DNA of 41,716 nucleotides, from contig QCNH01000004.1 of the NCBI GenBank assembly GCA_003213275.1, positions 1 to 41,716 of the forward strand, given 5' to 3'. The notes beneath the pieces were generated by a model that was given only the letters and a program-made list of their open reading frames with translations, was not told the DNA's origin and did not search any database. Source of the stretch: Prochlorococcus sp. AG-424-M03. Its GTDB lineage: Bacteria; Cyanobacteriota; Cyanobacteriia; PCC-6307; Cyanobiaceae. Shown here in pieces: positions 10,541-41,716 of this stretch. Within the stretch, counting starts at the first letter, position 1; the number at the start of each line of letters is the position of its first letter. Position numbers and translations under genes: made by a program.

Positions 10541-10722
10541 GTGATCAGAGGACATTTTTACAATACAACCTAGAACGTTATATATGTATAAATATTTGTT
10601 TTATGCAATAGAAAAATAATTCATCATATTCAAAAATTCTCTTTTATAACTAGATCCTTATTTCAGTCAATAATGTATTATGTTTTTAAGGTTTAGGTAT
10701 CCTCGGTGCTTGAAAACCCTTT

Positions 10723-10804
10723 GCGGACGTGGCGGAATTGGTAGACGCGCACGTCTAAGGAGCGTGTGGCTTAGGCCTTGCGAGTTCAAGTCTCGCCGTC
10801 CGCA
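10723..10804 (+). tRNA. trnL: tRNA-Leu, anticodon AAG
   Basis: Class II tRNA of 82 nt. The acceptor stem GCGGACG pairs with CGTCCGC, followed by discriminator A. The D stem is GCG/CGC, the anticodon stem is CACGT/GCGTG with loop CTAAGGA, the long variable arm is closed by GGC/GCC, and the T arm is GCGAG-TTCAAGT-CTCGC. The anticodon at 10757-10759 reads AAG (codon CTT), which is unusual for bacteria and would normally be deaminated to IAG. CCA is not encoded. The next gene begins 10-31 bp downstream, so both probably share a transcript. Confidence 0.95.
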
Positions 10805-10835
10805 TTTACATTTAATGTATTCTGGTTCAACTGCA

Positions 10836-19606: not shown

Positions 19607-19660
19607 ATAAAATAAAAACTTAATAAAAAAACTATTCAATACTCATTTTGCCTGTCAGAA

Positions 19661-19666
19661 TATAAA
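19661..19666 (+). promoter_or_regulatory. candidate -10 box of the tmRNA gene
   Basis: TATAAA lies just upstream of the first structured bases of the tmRNA acceptor piece, at the right distance for a transcription start near 19672. No convincing -35 box is visible. Confidence 0.35.
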
Positions 19667-19935
19667 TGTCCACTTGGACTAGGTGATCTCAACCGATGTT
19701 TCGGACAGCGGTTCGATTCCGCTCAACTCCACTTTTCGGGGTTGTAATGGTTTCGACGGGGCATAAGGAAGGTGACTGAAGCCGGCTCGGTTAGAGCAAA
19801 AACACAAACGCTAACAAAATCGTTAGTTTCTCCCGTCAAACAGCACCAGTTGCTGCTTGATCCTTAAGGAGATGGGGTCATATCAGCCTTATCAACCAAA
19901 TGATACGAGGAGTCTGGAAGGACTCCACTTTTGTA
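19667..19935 (+). ncRNA. ssrA: two-piece (circularly permuted) transfer-messenger RNA
   Basis: tmRNA rescues stalled ribosomes and tags the unfinished protein for degradation. The gene is permuted: the acceptor piece comes first, with T arm AGCGG-TTCGATT-CCGCT (19707-19723), acceptor strand CAACTCC (19724-19730) and discriminator A (19731). After a 6-nt intervening segment (19732-19737), the coding piece begins with the matching strand GGGGTTG (19738-19744) and the conserved TAATGGTTTCGACGGGG. The tag frame is at 19810-19860. A strong hairpin, GGAGTC/GACTCC, closes the visible structure near 19912-19930. CCA is not encoded. Outer ends are approximate; a further weak hairpin to about 19960 could belong to the coding piece. 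Confidence 0.93.
19810..19860 (+). other. tmRNA tag reading frame
   Basis: Sixteen codons plus TGA inside the tmRNA coding piece read ANKIVSFSRQTAPVAA. The -VAA end is the protease-recognition tail, and the sequence is the one I recall for Prochlorococcus and marine Synechococcus. The resume codon is GCT at 19810. Confidence 0.92.
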
Positions 19936-20089
19936 AATAACTAAAAAAGTTGTAGTGGATAAGGTTTTATCGTGTAAATATTGCTGCTATTGATTGTATT
20001 AAAAAGAATTTTTCTATTTTTTTAGGTATAAATACTGAGAAGATTAGTTTTAAATTAATTTATCTTGTATAAAACTCCAATCTTTCAAA

Positions 20090-20233: not shown

Positions 20234-21201
20234 TTAAACACTTGAAAAAGGATTTTTAGGCATTTTCTTTAAACAATTTTTTGAAACCTCCTGAAGTACT
20301 GTAAATTCATCTTTATTTAAATTCCATTTAAATACATTCGATACATCTATAACTTGAGATTTTTTTCGCATTCCTACAAGTGGAATGGTTCCTTGATAAC
20401 AACACCAATTAATTGCCACTTGGGCTTGAGAAACTGATCTTTTATTCGCAATTCTTTTAAGACACCTACGCAAGTCATATGTTGGTTTTTTATAGTTTTC
20501 AAATAAAGCATTACGAATAAAACTATTTTCTATTTTTTTTTCTTTATCTGGATCAAGGCAAAGTATTCCAAAGGATAAAGGACTATAAGCAAAGAAATTA
20601 ATATTATTTTCTTCGCAAATTTTTTTTACCCGATATTGTTTTTGCAAATCTGGAGCAAGTAAAGAAAACTGTATCTGAACGCTGTTTAGCCTCTGATCTC
20701 TTGTTGCCAAGAAATTAATTAATTTCTTCAATCTTTGAGGACCTATATTTGATAATCCGATTTGAAAATCAAAACCTTGATCTTTTAAATCGCAAAGATT
20801 ATTCAACAGCCCTAATTCCTGCCAAGGATTGTATTTTGCAGTTGACCAATGCAATTGAACTATGTCTAATTTATTATTAAGCCTTTCTAAACTTTTTAAA
20901 AAAGGTTTATTAAAACCTCTATCACCAATTCTCCAAGGATAAGGTGCGAGTTTAGTTGCTATTTGAATTCTTTTTTTTTTGCATTAGGAATATCTTGCAA
21001 AAATTTTCCTATCAAAGATTCACTTCTACCCTGAAGATTCCCAGTGCCGTAAGAATCAGCTGTATCAATTAGATCAAAACCTCTTTGCAAAGCTTCATTA
21101 AATGTCTCACCTAAATCATTGTCATTTGCAGATTTATAATTCCAAAAAAGCTTATTCCCCCAAGACCAAGTACCAAGTCCAATTCTTTTCTTCACTGACA
21201 T
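20234..21201 (-). pseudogene. aldo/keto reductase, frameshifted at an A10 tract
   Basis: Two reading frames together make one ~322-aa NADPH-dependent aldo/keto reductase. The first (from 21201: MSVKKRIGLGTWSWGNKLFW) carries the catalytic D and Y in FDLIDTADSYG and stops at 20959. The second frame carries the catalytic K (IATKLAPYPW) and H (IVQLHWSTAKY) and runs to 20234. They join if one base is added to the run of ten A residues (T10 on the plus strand, 20971-20980). A start-based reading of the second frame would begin only at TTG 20854 and lose the catalytic lysine. The rest of the gene looks intact, so the break is recent, a sequencing error, or bypassed by slippage. Confidence 0.85.
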
Positions 21202-21348: not shown

Positions 21349-22014
21349 TTGTTCATTACCGTTTGCGGACAAAAAGGAGGTGTGGCCAAGACCTGCACCA
21401 GTATTCACCTTGCTAGTGTTTGGCATTCTGAAGGCAAAAAAGTTTGCATAGTCGATGCTGACAAGAATAGATCAGCATTAGCATACTCCTCAAGAGGCAA
21501 TCTTCCATTTCCAGTTTTTCCAGTTAGTTCAGCTGCTAAAGCATCAAGATCATCAGAAATCGTAATAACTGATGGACAAGCTAGCAGTGATCAAGAAGAA
21601 CTAAAACACTTAGCGTATGGTTCAGATTTAGTAATCTTACCTACCACTGCGAAAGCAAGATCAGTAGAGTTAACTGTAGAACTAGCTAATTTATTAAGCG
21701 ACTTAAAAGTTAATCATGCAGTAGTGATAGTAAAAGTTGATTTTAGACAGCAAAAAGCAGCACAACAAGCTAAATCAGCTCTAGAGAATTTTGGTTTATA
21801 TGTTTTTGATACATTTATACCCTTACTTTCAGCGTTTGATAAAGCAGAAGCCTCGGGTAATGCTGTATTTGAAGCTGTAGACGATTTAGGTAGATCAGAT
21901 CCTCGTCGAATGACGGGCTGGTCTGCTTATTGTTCAATTGCCTCACAAATTCCATGCCTGATTTCGAAGCCCTCATCCGACACCAACAACAACCAACAAC
22001 CAATCAGCGCTTAA
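21349..22014 (+). CDS. orphan ParA/MinD-type ATPase
   Basis: A 221-aa deviant-Walker ATPase with GQKGGVAKTCTS at residues 7-18; the signature lysine is present and A replaces the usual G before the catalytic lysine. It continues with CIVDADKNRSALAY and LVILPTTAKA. ParA-type proteins position plasmids, chromosomes or protein complexes such as carboxysomes. No parB lies nearby, so the cargo is unknown. The start is TTG at 21349; no ATG or GTG precedes the P-loop in frame. The downstream small gene overlaps the 3' end by 61 bases in another frame, suggesting coupled translation and a joint role. Confidence 0.85.
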   Translation: MFITVCGQKGGVAKTCTSIHLASVWHSEGKKVCIVDADKNRSALAYSSRGNLPFPVFPVSSAAKASRSSEIVITDGQASSDQEELKHLAYGSDLVILPTTAKARSVELTVELANLLSDLKVNHAVVIVKVDFRQQKAAQQAKSALENFGLYVFDTFIPLLSAFDKAEASGNAVFEAVDDLGRSDPRRMTGWSAYCSIASQIPCLISKPSSDTNNNQQPISA

Positions 22015-22190
22015 AAGTAGTAGATGCGCCTGATTTTCAGAAAGAAAAAAACGAAGAGCCAATAATTACAAAATCTGGATTATTCGTTAATTTCTTTGGA
22101 GGTTTTATAGGTTCTGTAATTGGAACTTTAACAATATTGTTCCTTTATATTAATGAATATCTACCAATAGATTTACTAAAACTCAAGTAG
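21954..22190 (+). CDS. small single-pass membrane protein coupled to the ParA-like gene
   Basis: A 78-aa protein from the ATG at 21954 (MPDFEALIRHQQQPT); an ATG at 21930 would add eight residues. It has a polar N-terminus and one hydrophobic helix, FFGGFIGSVIGTLTILFLYI, near the C-terminus. Its first 61 bases overlap the end of the ParA-like gene, an arrangement that would let it serve as a membrane partner of the ATPase (inference). Its stop TAG at 22188-22190 overlaps the left copy of the argJ 3' end, so argJ originally converged directly on this gene. Confidence 0.78.
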   Translation: MPDFEALIRHQQQPTTNQRLKVVDAPDFQKEKNEEPIITKSGLFVNFFGGFIGSVIGTLTILFLYINEYLPIDLLKLK

Positions 22191-22216
22191 TATATTCGCT
22201 ATTCATTTCTATATTA
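22183..22216 (-). pseudogene. argJ: displaced 3' end of argJ (left attachment site)
   Basis: On the minus strand the codons read IEMNSEYTT followed by TGA, against VEINSEYTT and TAA at the true end of argJ (23110). The two share GTATATTCGCTATT exactly, within 19 of 20 matching bases (22190-22209 versus 23117-23136). Upstream of this the fragment loses clear similarity. It looks like the original argJ end, pushed away by an insertion. Confidence 0.6.
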
Positions 22217-22265
22217 AGATAATCACTATAATTGACTGCAATAACTAAATTTATATTTTGCGACT

Positions 22266-22284
22266 ATAAGCAAACTGTAAGCAA
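22266..22284 (+). repeat. left pair of RTAAGCAR direct repeats, 11-bp period
   Basis: ATAAGCAA at 22266 and GTAAGCAA at 22277 lie on the same face of the helix, one turn apart. The same arrangement recurs at 23047/23058. They look like arm-type integrase sites inside the left end of the element. Confidence 0.5.
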
Positions 22285-22408
22285 CAGCACATGCTTTATG
22301 GAATATTCTGCGGATGGATCTAATGCATCATTATCGTAATTACTTTCTCTTTCTATTTCTTTCCTAATAAACCTTTTACATTATTTGATTGTACCTAATA
22401 CATAAAAT

Positions 22409-22432
22409 AAGAGGGCATTTGTTTGCCCTCTT
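22409..22432. terminator. 9-bp perfect hairpin, terminator-like on the minus strand
   Basis: AAGAGGGCA and TGCCCTCTT flank a 6-nt loop. Read on the minus strand it is followed by TTATTTTATG, a fair terminator tail; on the plus strand it is followed by CGAGTCG, which is not. It lies in the 426-bp gene-free stretch 22191-22616. Confidence 0.5.
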
Positions 22433-22442
22433 CGAGTCGTAT

Positions 22443-22544
22443 GCACCTCGCTGACTAAAAAGTCGATGAAGTGCTTTTGAATCCTGAATTATTTCTACTC
22501 CTACTGAACGGTAAAAGATAATCGCAACAACCACAAAGCACTTC
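22443..22544. other. structured non-coding region with mutually exclusive stems
   Basis: GAAGTGCTTT (22468-22477) can pair with AAAGCACTTC (22535-22544) in a 10-bp stem, or its GTGC can pair with the upstream GCAC (22443-22446) in a nested stem with TCG/CGA and ACT/AGT around an AAAA loop. The two folds exclude each other, as in leader attenuators. It precedes the small gene at 22617 by about 70 bp. It could be a leader or a small RNA on either strand; no known family is recognised. Confidence 0.35.
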
Positions 22545-22616
22545 TACTCGGGTAATAATACTCTATGAATTTCAAGTTAATAGGAGGAGAATATAAATAT
22601 AAATCTAGGAGGTCTT

Positions 22617-22799
22617 ATGAAACTATTCAATCAATTTAACATTCTTCCAAGATACTTAACTCCGTTTAATTATGCAGGATTAAACCTAAACGAAACCCCA
22701 AAAGAACTTGAGAAATGCACTCCTGAGTTTCAAAACTTTTGGGAGAAAGAATGTAGAGAACATCCAACAAATCAAAATTGTTTAATTTACTGCGACTGA
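22617..22799 (+). CDS. 60-aa cysteine-containing protein with CP12-like tail
   Basis: A small gene with an unusually strong ribosome-binding site, AGGAGG, 4 bp before the ATG. The N-terminus MKLFNQFNILPRY shares the pattern MKLxxxFxILxR with the next gene. The C-terminus has four cysteines, and its last part, CREHPTNQNCLIYCD, has the spacing C-x3-P-x4-C-x2-Y-x-D. CP12, the redox-controlled inhibitor of GAPDH and phosphoribulokinase, ends with the same spacing. The CP12 N-terminal cysteine pair and core motif are absent, so it is not a full CP12. No membrane segment. It probably forms an operon with the gene at 22838. Confidence 0.75.
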   Translation: MKLFNQFNILPRYLTPFNYAGLNLNETPKELEKCTPEFQNFWEKECREHPTNQNCLIYCD

Positions 22800-22837
22800 G
22801 TTATTAATTTTTAGTCTTTATTAACAAAGGAGGTTTT

Positions 22838-23005
22838 ATGAAACTAACTACCCCATTTACCATTCTCAATCGAACATTCAATGAGATGGATTTAATTAGA
22901 GATGCAATGAAGAAAAGAAAATTGGCAACTGAAAGATTGCATGATGATTATAGAAAAATGTTCAAAAACAAAGAACATCCAAGCATAGTTAACGGATATG
23001 TTTAA
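22838..23005 (+). CDS. 55-aa basic protein, N-terminal paralogue of the preceding gene
   Basis: ATG at 22838, with AGGAGG 4 bp upstream. The start context and first codons (GGAGGTTTTATGAAACTA) differ from those of the gene at 22617 by one base. The protein starts MKLTTPFTILNRTFNEMD and continues as a charged, probably helical segment (RDAMKKRKLATERLHDDYRK) with no cysteines. I do not recognise it. It lies 38 bp downstream of the first small gene and is likely cotranscribed. It is too short for most gene callers' thresholds. Confidence 0.7.
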   Translation: MKLTTPFTILNRTFNEMDLIRDAMKKRKLATERLHDDYRKMFKNKEHPSIVNGYV

Positions 23006-23046
23006 CCTTATATGACTAAATTAAATTAGTAATAACAATTCCTAAT

Positions 23047-23065
23047 GTAAGCAGGCCGTAAGCAA
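23047..23065 (+). repeat. right pair of RTAAGCAR direct repeats, 11-bp period
   Basis: GTAAGCAG at 23047 and GTAAGCAA at 23058 match the left pair in sequence, orientation and spacing, and sit 52 bp from the right copy of the argJ core (the left pair is 56 bp from its core). Confidence 0.5.
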
Positions 23066-23109
23066 AATATATGTACTCTTCAAATCGATCACTATAACTA
23101 CGTTTAGCA

Positions 23110-24372
23110 TTACGTCGTATATTCGCTATTTATTTCAACATACTTTTTAGAAAGATCGCATCCCCAAGCTGTGCCTTTGCATTCTCCAGAATTTAGATTA
23201 ATCATAATTTTTACAATATCATCTACTAAATATCTACCTTTCATTTTGGACCTAATATAGTTTGTGACTTTTTGAGAATCATATTTAGTTAACTTACCCT
23301 TTTCCAAAATCTGATGGTTACCTATATGTAAATCGACGTCATTTAGATTGAATTTAACGCCAGAATTACCTGCAGCAGAAATAATTCTTCCCCAATTTGG
23401 ATCACAGCCATGTATCGCAGTTTTTACCAATGCAGAATTACATATAGATTTAGCAACGATAATTGCATCATCAATATTTTTTGTTCCCTGAACTAAAACT
23501 TCTAATAAACAATTTGCGCCTTCTCCATCCCTGGCAATATTTTTTGCCAATTTTTGACATACAATGTCAATTCCTTTTTGAATAATTGGCAAAAATCTTT
23601 TATCAATTTTATTTCCTGCATTTATTCCAACAAAAGAATCATTTGTGCTTGTCTCTCCATCAACTGATATTGCATTAAAAGATTTTTTTACAGCAATAGA
23701 AATCATTTTATCCCATTCTTCTTTCTCAATACCCACATCACACGTGAGGAAAGCAAGCATTGTAGCCATATTGGGATAAATCATTCCTGATCCTTTTGCT
23801 AATCCTGCTATTTTTATCTTTCTACCTTGAATAATCGTCTCTATTAAAACTTTTTTCAAAGTCAAATCAGTAGTTAAAATTGCTTCTGCTGCATTTTGAA
23901 AGTTATTCACTTTTAAATCACGCACTAAATCCGGTAAATTTTTTACTAAATCTTTTATTTGTATAGGAACACCAATCACACCAGTTGAGCACATTAAAAC
24001 TTCTTCTTGTTTTATTCCTAAAAGTTCTGCAATCTTTGCCGTAGCAATTTGAAAATGTTGAATGCCAACATTTCCTGTACATGCATTTGCTTGACCAGAA
24101 TTAATTAGTATCGCTCGTACAAACCCTGAAGATTTTTTAATCCTTTCCTCACAAATATCGACACAAGAAGCTCGAACTATTGATTGGGTAAACATCCCAC
24201 TAAAAATACTTCCTTCTGGAGCAAGTATCAGTGCTAAATCTTTCTTATTAGAGGCTTTTAATCCAGCAGAAATCCCAGCAAAAAGAAAACCCTTAGGTGT
24301 TTCATTACCTTCATCAACAAACGACCAAATGGAATCAGACTGGCTCAATCTTTTTTTATATTTTTCATTCAT
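23110..24372 (-). CDS. argJ: glutamate N-acetyltransferase / ornithine acetyltransferase ArgJ
   Basis: A 420-aa bifunctional or monofunctional enzyme of arginine synthesis that moves the acetyl group from acetylornithine to glutamate. The precursor cleaves itself before the nucleophile T204 in PNMATMLAFL; GTGVIGVP-like and SVDGETSTNDS segments are also present. The C-terminus ends AWGCDLSKKYVEINSEYTT, as in complete ArgJ proteins. Its last ~20 bases are repeated at 22190, so the present 3' end may have been supplied by the inserted element. It is divergent from coaE (53 bp). Confidence 0.96.
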   Translation of the reverse strand: MNEKYKKRLSQSDSIWSFVDEGNETPKGFLFAGISAGLKASNKKDLALILAPEGSIFSGMFTQSIVRASCVDICEERIKKSSGFVRAILINSGQANACTGNVGIQHFQIATAKIAELLGIKQEEVLMCSTGVIGVPIQIKDLVKNLPDLVRDLKVNNFQNAAEAILTTDLTLKKVLIETIIQGRKIKIAGLAKGSGMIYPNMATMLAFLTCDVGIEKEEWDKMISIAVKKSFNAISVDGETSTNDSFVGINAGNKIDKRFLPIIQKGIDIVCQKLAKNIARDGEGANCLLEVLVQGTKNIDDAIIVAKSICNSALVKTAIHGCDPNWGRIISAAGNSGVKFNLNDVDLHIGNHQILEKGKLTKYDSQKVTNYIRSKMKGRYLVDDIVKIMINLNSGECKGTAWGCDLSKKYVEINSEYTT

Positions 24373-33004: not shown

Positions 33005-34780
33005 ATGATAGCCTCTGCCCAGACGAGTAATTCTAAATTGGCACAAATAAATAACAAGTTGACAGTTCAATCTCAAAAATTCGCTGATGATTCATGTGCC
33101 ATAAGATCTTTGGATTGGGATCGCAGTAGATTTGATATTGAATTTGGTTTAAGAAATGGCACTACTTATAATAGTTTTATTATTAAAGGCGAAAAACTAG
33201 CAATTATTGATACTAGTCACGCAAAGTTTGAAGAATTATGGTTTGAAGAATTACTGAAAGAGGTAAATCCACAAGAAGTTGATTATCTAATTACAAGCCA
33301 TACAGAACCTGATCATTCTGGTTTAATAGGCAATCTTTTAGAATTAAACCAAAATATCACAGTAGTAGGATCAAAATTAGCCCTTAAATTTATTGAAGAC
33401 CAAATACATATTCCCTTTAAGCGTCTAGAAGTCAAAAGTGGAGAATTTTTAAATCTAGGAAATAATCCTAATAGCGGTTTAGAACATAATATTGAATTTA
33501 TAAGCGCACCAAATTTACATTGGCCAGATACAATTTTTTCATATGATCACAGCACACATGTTCTTTATACATGCGATGCATTTGGGCTCCATTATTGTTC
33601 TGACGAGTTTTTTGACACTAATCAAAAAGAAATATATGATGACTTTCGTTTTTATTACGATTGCCTAATGGGTCCAAACGCTAGAAGCGTTCTTCAGGCA
33701 ATTAAAAGAATAGATAAGCTACCTGAATTAAAAACGATAGCAGTTGGTCATGGGCCTTTGCTCCATAATCATGTCAATTTTTGGAAAGAAAAATATCTAG
33801 AATGGAGTAGCAATAAAAGTAAGGGAAATGAATTTGTATCAGTATGCTATATAAGCGACTATGGATATTGTGATCGACTAAGCCAAGCCATATCTCATGG
33901 AATAAGTAAAACAGATGCGCAGGTTCAATTAATTGATTTAAGATCTTCTGACCCTCAAGAATTAACAAGTTTAATTTCTGAATCAAAAGCGGTAGTTATC
34001 CCCACATGGCCAGTAGATTCAGATAACGAATTAAAAGAATCTCTTGGCACATTATTTGCAGCATTAAAACCAAAACAATTTACGGCTGTTTATGATGCAT
34101 TTGGTGGAAATGATGAACCAATAGATTCCTTAGCAAATAAATTAAGAGAACTAGGACAGAAAGAAGCATTTTCGCCTTTAAGAGTTAAAAAAAATCCAGA
34201 TCCTATTATTTATCAACAATTCGAAGAAGCTGGAACTGACTTAGGTCAATTGATCAACAAAAAGAAAAATATTGCCTCAATGAAGAGCCTTGATACAAAT
34301 TTAGATAAAGCTTTAGGTAGATTAAGCGGAGGATTATATGTAGTTACAGCTAGCCAAGGAGAAGGTTCAACATTTAGACAAAGTGCAATGGTAGCAAGTT
34401 GGGTTAGTCAAGCAAGTTTTTCTCCACCCGGCATTACAGTAGCAGTAGCAAAAGATAGAGCTATTGAATCATATATGCAAGTTGGCCAAGGTTTTGTTGT
34501 GAATATCTTGCGAGAAGATAACTATCAAAAAATGTTCAGACATTTTTTAAAAAGATTTGCTCCTGGAGCTGATAGATTTGCAGATGTAGATTTAATTAGC
34601 AACATTGCAGAAGGAGGTCCAGTTCTATCAGATTCACTCGCTTTTTTAGATTGTAAAGTTAGTTCCAGACTGGAAACTCCAGATCATTGGATAATTTACG
34701 GAATTGTTGAAAATGGTAATGTCTCTGACTTATCATGCAAGACAGCTGTTCATCACAGGAAAGTTGCTAATCATTATTAA
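33005..34780 (+). CDS. flv3: flavodiiron protein, Flv3 type
   Basis: A 591-aa flavodiiron protein with three domains: metallo-beta-lactamase-like diiron domain (about 30-270), flavodoxin-like FMN domain (about 280-420), and C-terminal flavin-reductase domain (about 440-591). The diiron ligands are canonical: H99, E101, D103 and H104 in HTEPDH, then the histidine in NLHWPDT, the aspartate in CDAFG and the histidine in VGHGP. In cyanobacteria Flv1/Flv3 pass electrons from photosystem I to oxygen, giving water without reactive oxygen. The canonical site marks this as the Flv3-type partner. The second flv gene follows after 14 bp. Confidence 0.93.
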   Translation: MIASAQTSNSKLAQINNKLTVQSQKFADDSCAIRSLDWDRSRFDIEFGLRNGTTYNSFIIKGEKLAIIDTSHAKFEELWFEELLKEVNPQEVDYLITSHTEPDHSGLIGNLLELNQNITVVGSKLALKFIEDQIHIPFKRLEVKSGEFLNLGNNPNSGLEHNIEFISAPNLHWPDTIFSYDHSTHVLYTCDAFGLHYCSDEFFDTNQKEIYDDFRFYYDCLMGPNARSVLQAIKRIDKLPELKTIAVGHGPLLHNHVNFWKEKYLEWSSNKSKGNEFVSVCYISDYGYCDRLSQAISHGISKTDAQVQLIDLRSSDPQELTSLISESKAVVIPTWPVDSDNELKESLGTLFAALKPKQFTAVYDAFGGNDEPIDSLANKLRELGQKEAFSPLRVKKNPDPIIYQQFEEAGTDLGQLINKKKNIASMKSLDTNLDKALGRLSGGLYVVTASQGEGSTFRQSAMVASWVSQASFSPPGITVAVAKDRAIESYMQVGQGFVVNILREDNYQKMFRHFLKRFAPGADRFADVDLISNIAEGGPVLSDSLAFLDCKVSSRLETPDHWIIYGIVENGNVSDLSCKTAVHHRKVANHY

Positions 34781-40977: not shown

Positions 40978-41716
40978 ATGAACAATCGTAATTCTAAAGA
41001 ACAAATAATTAATCAGGCAATTAAATTTCATTTACAAGGGAATATTCCAGAAGCAACAAAATATTATAAATATTGTATTAATCAAGGATTTGAGAATCAT
41101 ATAGTTTTATCTAATTATGGAGCGATTTTACAAGGTCTAGGTAAATTACAAGAAGCAAAATTGTCATATCGCAAAGCAATTAAACTAAAACCTGATTTCG
41201 CAGATGCTTATTCAAATCTTGGGAATATTTTGAGGGATCTTGGGAAATTACAAGAAGCAGAATTATATACCCGCAAAGCAATTGAACTTAATCCTCGTTA
41301 CGCTAATGCTTATTATAATCTTGGGATAATTTTACAAGGTCTAGATAAATTACAAGAAGCAGAAATTTCATACCGCAAAGCAATTGAACTTAATCCTGAT
41401 TTCGCAAAAGCATATTCAAATCTTGGGAATATTTTGAGGGATCTTGGGAAATTACAAGAAGCAGAATTATATACCCGTAAAGCAATTGAACTTGATCCTA
41501 ATTTCGCAGAAGCATATTCAAATCTTGGAAATGTCCTAAGTGATCTTGGGAAATTACAAGAAGCAGAATTATATACCCGCAAAGCAATTGAACTGAATCC
41601 TCGTTACGCTAATGCTTATTTAAATCTTGGAGGCATATTGACAAATCTTGGCAAATTACAAGATGCAGAATTATCTACTCGTAAAGCAATTGAATTGAAT
41701 CCTAATCTCGCAGACG
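40978..41716 (+). CDS. tetratricopeptide repeat (TPR) protein, 3' partial
   Basis: ATG at 40978 starts MNNRNSKEQIINQAIKFHLQ, and the frame stays open to the window end (246 codons seen). About seven tandem 34-residue TPR units follow, with the consensus AYSNLGNILRDLGKLQEAE and YRKAIELNPDF. TPR solenoids mediate protein-protein contacts. In picocyanobacteria such N-terminal arrays are often joined to glycosyltransferase, methyltransferase or sulfotransferase domains, but none is visible here. The repeats are very similar at DNA level, pointing to recent expansion. The gene lies just inside the putative guaA island. Confidence 0.9.
   Translation, partial: MNNRNSKEQIINQAIKFHLQGNIPEATKYYKYCINQGFENHIVLSNYGAILQGLGKLQEAKLSYRKAIKLKPDFADAYSNLGNILRDLGKLQEAELYTRKAIELNPRYANAYYNLGIILQGLDKLQEAEISYRKAIELNPDFAKAYSNLGNILRDLGKLQEAELYTRKAIELDPNFAEAYSNLGNVLSDLGKLQEAELYTRKAIELNPRYANAYLNLGGILTNLGKLQDAELSTRKAIELNPNLAD
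41209..41493 (+). repeat. 204-bp-spaced near-identical copies within the TPR gene
   Basis: About 80 bases beginning TATTCAAATCTTGGGAAT at 41209 recur at 41413 with a single C/T difference. The distance equals two TPR units (2 x 102 bp). This suggests recent duplication or gene conversion of a two-unit block. Confidence 0.8.

Follow-up and report, generated by a model that had tools for sequence, protein, structure and literature searches.

The argJ 3' end as an integration hotspot in Prochlorococcus, with a probable non-autonomous cassette in strain AG-424-M03

A 41,716-bp stretch of the genome of Prochlorococcus sp. AG-424-M03 (contig QCNH01000004.1, hereafter the window) carries the last codons of argJ twice, and the question raised by this locus is whether the second copy marks an element integrated into the 3' end of the gene and, if so, how such an element was inserted and could be moved. 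Comparison with related genomes indicates that the segment between the copies is very probably a minimal, non-autonomous cassette resembling a cis-mobilizable element (CIME), inserted at an attachment site in the last codons of argJ by a lambda-type tyrosine recombinase supplied in trans. Feature coordinates are collected in Table 1, and the loci and genomes compared are denoted by L and G numbers, respectively.

The two copies match at 19 of 20 bases, 14 of them consecutive (GTATATTCGCTATT), at an offset of exactly 927 bp, and both encode NSEYTT and a stop on the minus strand. A recount confirmed this repeat as reported in the original prediction, together with its placement of the far copy over the stop of the convergent small gene (stop codon at 22188-22190). 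Other 19/20 repeats at spacings of 300-3000 bp occur in two places of the window, at approximately 41143-41316 (306- and 408-bp spacing) and at 34398/36218. The 17-base core, with up to 3 mismatches, was found at two window sites only; shuffled sequence gave a mean of 0.44 sites and reached two in 6 of 100 shuffles, so that the repeat by itself is suggestive and the comparative evidence decides.

Empty and occupied sites were counted in two surveys, which overlap, were not summed and lean to close relatives. The first covered 80 of 486 argJ loci from public genomes and yielded 37 empty sites with an 8-bp overlap between the argJ stop and the small gene, 36 sites with 209-5,591 bp between the two genes, and 7 that ran off the contig or had no readable small gene. 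The second covered the best 120 of 226 genus genomes by argJ similarity, excluding that of the window, and yielded 53 uninterrupted argJ/small-gene junctions, 62 occupied ones (134-9,331 bp) and 5 in which no small gene could be read; among the 115 sampled genomes readable on both sides, 62 have an insert at the argJ 3' end. The argJ 3' end of these relatives is an integration hotspot, and both the uninterrupted junctions and the larger integrase-bearing islands that the original prediction had proposed looking for in other strains are present there, the islands carrying tyrosine-recombinase genes.

The junctions indicate where the inserts enter. The empty-site consensus is AATAGCGAATATACTACTTAAGTTTT, and argJ ends in ACTACTTRA at 53 of 53 empty sites. 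Occupied or contig-end sites differ from ACTACTTRA in 62 of 67 cases (23 other 12-mers) and agree with it in 5, and the protein end INSEYTT is present at 67 of 67 of these sites and at 52 of 53 empty ones. The inserts supply the last codons of argJ, mostly different yet synonymous, and the displaced host end stands at the far side. On the argJ side the inserts leave the consensus from the third base of the second-last codon on, two earlier core positions agreeing at 78% and 89%; on the far side agreement is 86-95% across the core and 89-100% beyond it. Because the argJ side is host-like up to the core and the far side host-like from the core outwards, strand exchange is placed inside AATAGCGAATATAC. 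In the window, the far copy from the core outwards equals the empty sites of Prochlorococcus MIT 9302 (L001) and L134 for about 30 bases. Since its identity to the MIT 9302 site runs through CTACTTGAGTTTTAGTAAATCTATTGGTA, the copy attached to argJ is taken as the replacement brought by the element and the far copy as the original end, and an ancestor of the window was therefore probably empty at this site.

At each end of the inserts, two tandem units of about 8 bases lie at a distance from the core that is specific to the arm family and nearly constant within it. Tandem 8-base pairs with spacings of 10-12 bp were sought in 60 inserts longer than 350 bp (59 and that of the window), three inserts below 350 bp being excluded from the arm counts because both arm windows overlap. 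Pairs matching at 7/8 or better were found in 45 argJ-side and 48 far-side arms, and exact 8/8 pairs in 22 and 28, respectively, all 50 at a spacing of 11 bp; 39/60 argJ-side and 37/60 far-side arms beat their own shuffles at 0.05. The same argJ-side stretch of the 53 empty sites, used as a control, gave 8 pairs at 7/8 and none at 8/8, and none beat its shuffles. The arm families (TGTGATTA, GCTTAC, TAACAC, TGACAC, ACCAC, AAACAC, AAACC and TTCAC) are matched by none of the 53 empty sites. Both ends could be classified in 29 of 60 inserts, and the argJ-side and far-side families coincide in 15 of 17 short inserts (<2.3 kb), against a permutation mean of 3.8 (0/5000). A family-free score gave 24.4 against 21.4 for short inserts (0/5000) and 22.1 against 21.1 for long ones (20/5000). 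The combination of a core with flanking arm-type repeats is the layout of lambda-type systems, and the tandem repeats of 11-bp period seem, in sequence, like lambda-type integrase arm sites.

Cores also occur within the inserts: the 59 inserts longer than 350 bp hold 27 in the argJ orientation (in 21 inserts) and 2 on the opposite strand, and the reversed control gave 1. Loci L124 and L133 contain consecutive cassettes with TGACAC, TGTGAT and GCTTAC arms and another core near the far end, and in L114 and L155 an internal core separates an integrase element from the next cassette, whose 413-aa gene is surface-protein-like. A search of 266 genus genomes for the GCTTAC tandem gave 26 occurrences in 21 of them (reversed-pattern control, 0), and the 1.5-kb flanks of each contain an argJ-type core or a portion of the argJ locus; in L273 and L276 a recognisable core lies 0.7-0.85 kb from the tandem.

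Integrase genes at the site are few. Genus counts refer to homologues of the two types found at argJ, and these turned up in three of the 266 genus genomes, always at argJ. Type I is a 468-aa protein encoded next to argJ in L074, with weak matches to SAM-like and Phage_integrase families; at E <=1e-20 it occurs in 2 of the 266 genomes (G083, its own genome, and G089), in both directly after argJ and in both with a serine recombinase also encoded in the argJ insert. Type II (L219; 527 aa, Phage_integrase E=1.4e-6) comes from one further genome, where the argJ insert that contains it measures 9.0 kb and has TTCAC arms. At 1e-15, type-I homologues were found in 14 of 300 family genomes. The three best of these matches (other genera, 47-50% identical) are encoded immediately after argJ with GTGATWAT-like tandems between, and in one of them (L271) a second integrase copy follows at a distance of about 6 kb. 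The examined flanks of the remaining eleven, which match less well (23-30% identity, including genus genome G009), contained no argJ. Tyrosine recombinases share the catalytic motif R-K-[H/Y]xxR-Y, and R268, K305, R394, H395 and Y426 are invariant in 7 aligned integrases, in which the segment reads Y391xxR394H395. A PDB profile search gave weak integrase matches only (3nkh, E=9e-4; 6en0, E=5e-3).

Occupancy was mapped onto a tree from argJ and the far flank with 115 of 121 sequences, five having been dropped for want of the small gene and one for short flanks. Changes between occupied and empty numbered 38, against 38.3 (standard deviation 3.1) with shuffled labels, and occupancy is thus without tree signal. 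Over the approximately 2 kb compared, the empty locus L210 is 99.8% identical to L207, which has an insert of 5.2 kb.

The element in the window is a shortened member of this set. With cassettes of approximately 1.8 kb (L218, L246 and L182), and also with the third cassette of L133, it shares about 744 bp on its argJ side at 92-93% identity, and its far arm matches those longer cassettes at 82-85%. Absent from it is the stretch that in L218 holds a 287-aa gene, with a match to a candidate defence family at E=5e-7, and in L133 a gene for a 97-aa thiamine-binding protein. The bases matching the end of the L133 gene and what follows remain, which points to an internal deletion, and by its sequence the window element looks like an internal-deletion form of the longer cassettes. 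ORF1 (ORF, open reading frame) gave no Pfam match and no significant PHROG match and ORF2 no match in either collection, and the allele search for ORF2 gave one matching allele. At gathering thresholds, Rfam returned a tRNA and a tmRNA only for the window, and at E <=1 nothing for the element, including its putative non-coding RNA (ncRNA). The consensus fold of the latter scored -32.9 against -13.3 (standard deviation 3.2) for 50 column-shuffled controls; most of its pairs do not covary, and a functional RNA is therefore only suggested.

Table 1 Features of the argJ locus in the window
Feature	Coordinates	Strand	Remarks
argJ, target gene	23110..24372	-	Pfam ArgJ E=4.4e-128; protein end INSEYTT, same as relatives
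Convergent small gene	21930..22190	+	86 aa, TTG start; 8-bp overlap with argJ end in empty genomes
argJ-side core copy	23117..23136	-	Followed by element-supplied argJ end ACG ACG TAA; ACT ACT TRA at empty sites
Far core copy	22190..22209	-	Displaced original argJ end ACT ACT TGA on outer side
927-bp unit, probable integrated element including one core copy	22190..23116	.	Direct repeat offset 927; empty site in relatives
argJ-side arm, tandem TTGCTTACGGCCTGCTTAC, 11-bp period	23047..23065	-	GCTTAC family
Far-side arm, tandem TTGCTTACAGTTTGCTTA, 11-bp period	22267..22284	-	GCTTAC family; locus L081
ORF1, 60 aa	22617..22799	+	Purifying selection, pN/pS 0.10 over 29 alleles
ORF2, 55 aa	22838..23005	+	GGAGG upstream
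Putative ncRNA with intrinsic-terminator-like hairpin at its end	22402..22600	-	Conserved copies; consensus fold
Stretch 85% identical to end of 97-aa gene and following bases (L133 third cassette)	22296..22388	-	Gene itself missing in window

Parts of the element recur elsewhere. The module of ncRNA and 60-aa ORF (22402-22800) is dispersed, a 963-bp query matching 259 of 266 genus genomes (E <=0.01), often more than once per genome and, among the matches listed, mostly over this part. A hypothetical protein of cyanophage P-TIM68 (129380-129445; L272) is 64% identical to the last 22 residues of ORF1, and elsewhere in the window genome (G000:C42:3567-3615; L125) a 49-bp stretch matches the far part of the element at 86%, with a tRNA-Ser approximately 1.7 kb off.

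Empty and occupied sites, junctions, arms, arrays, the lack of tree signal and the integrase genes at the site together show site-specific insertion by comparison of genomes. In the mechanism proposed, a lambda-type tyrosine recombinase would insert the element where the last codons of argJ form an attachment site, exchanging strands inside the core defined above. The element would bring its own last codons and stop and push the original end of argJ to the far side; as these codons are synonymous, ArgJ would be unchanged. An integrase acting in trans would recognise the tandem arm repeats at both ends (in the window, of the GCTTAC type), and because one core serves several arm families, unrelated cassettes could accumulate one after another at the site. 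We infer, on this scheme, that the argJ-site integrases would be the catalysts and would recognise the arms, and that the window copy may still be mobile, in trans. The original prediction, which had seen here an integrated element, is largely supported by the empty junctions and the integrase islands of relatives; its two alternatives, an element without integrase mobilised in trans and the remnant of a larger island, each hold in part, with the additions that both arms are kept and that the cargo gene of the relatives is missing.

Several observations weigh against this reading. The ends of long inserts agree no better than chance in the family test (5/12; mean 4.0, 1580/5000), a difference from the short inserts that fits stacks as opposed to single cassettes; for 31 of 60 inserts an arm family could not be assigned to both ends, and the definition of the families followed inspection of the data. 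Pfam support for the type-I integrase is weak, and a single-sequence structure model of it reached a mean predicted local distance difference test score (pLDDT) of 37 and was not used. The remote relative in genus genome G009 (23% identity) is not at argJ, and GCTTAC arms accompany none of the integrase genes found in the genus and family searches. The window genome (G000; 1.12 Mb, 63% complete) has no Phage_integrase match above the cut-off and one below it (C25). Neither the integrase, sought in viral contigs and phage records, nor the core pattern, sought in viral contigs, was found in the collections searched. Turnover of occupancy could also stem partly from homologous exchange of the whole argJ region.

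The lack of an integrase match above the cut-off in the 63% of the window genome covered, together with a length below that of related cassettes and the loss of the cargo gene, is what favours an immobile relic, shrunk by decay from a larger argJ element to 0.93 kb and today passed on by inheritance alone. The window retains both arms and both cores, however, ORF1 is under purifying selection and occupancy turns over fast in the genus, and the relic is rated as possible yet on the unlikely side; it is compatible with the proposed origin and differs on present mobility, and the confidences in the two overlap. Less probable still is a process in which cassettes today change mainly by homologous recombination between the conserved flanks (argJ on one side, the small gene and a parA-like gene on the other) instead of by site-specific recombination. 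The high conservation of these flanks and an occupancy without tree signal would suit it, but exact junctions within one 14-bp core, hybrid ends, paired arms and integrase genes at the site would not. Gene cassettes of the integron kind, moved via folded single-stranded sites, would likewise give many one- or few-gene cassettes, arrays and a single insertion point, and are nevertheless very improbable given ends made of a short core and tandem direct arm repeats, the layout of an arm-site integrase. Chance or slippage duplication of 20 bp without any mobile element, for which an AT-rich genome and the shuffles with two core-like matches at 3 mismatches might be cited, is contradicted by the dozens of genomes that show empty sites or hybrid junctions and can be set aside.

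The concept of a trans-mobilised cassette at a gene end is already known. In the available text of PMC5704250, CIMEs are elements that have lost their integration genes and kept both attachment ends, and integrative and conjugative elements (ICEs) and integrative and mobilizable elements (IMEs) accrete in tandem at target-gene ends, including under distant integrases of shared specificity. The window element corresponds to a CIME in having a core and GCTTAC arms at both ends and only small ORFs, without integrase or transfer genes, the two longest plus-strand ORFs being without family match; as to decay from a larger element, it is shorter than related cassettes, themselves of unproven ICE/IME status. 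Unlike the CIMEs and accretions described, argJ inserts are mostly small cassettes with several arm families on one core, and the target is argJ in a streamlined oceanic genome; unlike in ICEs, no conjugation genes were noted among the sample of argJ-insert proteins scanned. The tycheposons of Prochlorococcus, as far as given in the available parts of PMC10187409 and PMC10872708, are likewise cargo-carrying elements with tyrosine recombinases, but are tRNA-associated and measure 4-200 kb, whereas the argJ elements measure 0.13-9.3 kb; the only tRNA gene of the window lies at 10722-10805 and its tmRNA gene at 19642-19951. A picocyanobacterial integrase family at tRNA-Phe and tRNA-Cys, often near a small serine recombinase (PMC10187409, in part), is alike, by description, in comprising marine picocyanobacterial tyrosine recombinases and in the serine recombinase, which the argJ inserts of both genus genomes with type I also encode, and differs in target. 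The word 'argJ' is absent from PMC5704250 and PMC2518516, and argJ as an integration site was not found in literature searches, which miss most subscription journals and in which at least two papers name both Prochlorococcus and argJ; nor, within the same literature, were the small size, the abundance relative to few integrase genes or the many arm families on one core.

Stacking of cassettes at the 3' end of a housekeeping gene is also a feature of the staphylococcal cassette chromosome (SCC) elements, which lie at rlmH and differ in using serine recombinases.

Similar in kind are islands at the 3' end of guaA, such as ICERspD18B (PMC7775301) and the guaA entries in a table of PMC5704250, which in the text available are tyrosine-recombinase elements in the end of a protein-coding biosynthesis gene with a repeat of about 20 bp, and differ from the argJ elements in target gene. 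Prochlorococcus appears to have guaA cassettes as well. In L119 (2429, 3592, 5329), L127 (2154, 4083) and L130 (2860, 3789) the end of guaA, a gene named by reading (TIEWE and stop, GAGTGGGA-type core), is repeated downstream, followed in L119 and L127 by TTTCACAT tandem arms; PMC7775301 gives a guaA repeat that agrees with this core. At these loci guaA is a second docking site within a protein-coding gene, and its cargo is the ncRNA/60-aa module. In genome G006 (L138/L273, L294) the two sides of the site lie apart, the argJ side with its GCTTAC arm near 40 kb and that of the small gene at 63 kb, and argJ is faced by a guaA-like gene; the arrangement resembles an inversion between the copies of the module at the two genes.

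A wider reading is offered tentatively, with somewhat more doubt than confidence. Under such an 'arm code', one core would be common to no fewer than eight arm families, each read by its own, mostly absent, integrase, and single-gene cassettes would spread, stack and be exchanged among oceanic Prochlorococcus without mobility genes, guaA serving as a parallel docking point with a different core and arms.

Some further features were recorded. A 456-bp 3' piece of argJ (449-904) lies upstream of full argJ (1679-2938) in L026, a partial duplication. At 20234-21201 of the window, an aldo/keto-reductase-like gene (named by reading) occupies two ORFs, of 206 and 80 aa, with a long run of T nearby; in two relatives it is a single gene of 320-327 aa, the split being a frameshift or an assembly error. 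The repeat at 34398 and 36218 is exact over 20 bp or more, its copies 1820 bp apart, and the 306/408-bp-spaced repeats extend from 41143 to approximately 41620, a region that reads like tetratricopeptide (TPR) repeats, by reading only.

Prochlorococcus combines very small genomes with a large flexible gene pool, and the route by which single genes enter is only partly known. Among the cargo of the argJ inserts are a cluster of 37 ORFs from 28 loci, represented by a protein with a YadA-type surface anchor, and some proteins of restriction- or nuclease-like kind; such cargo would be relevant to phage resistance. Because the ends at the mapped argJ docking site are exact, its arms recognisable and its dedicated integrases rare, gains and losses of genes there can be counted in genomes and tested in a reconstituted system, and the cassettes found there point to a little-described route of gene swapping in these tiny genomes.

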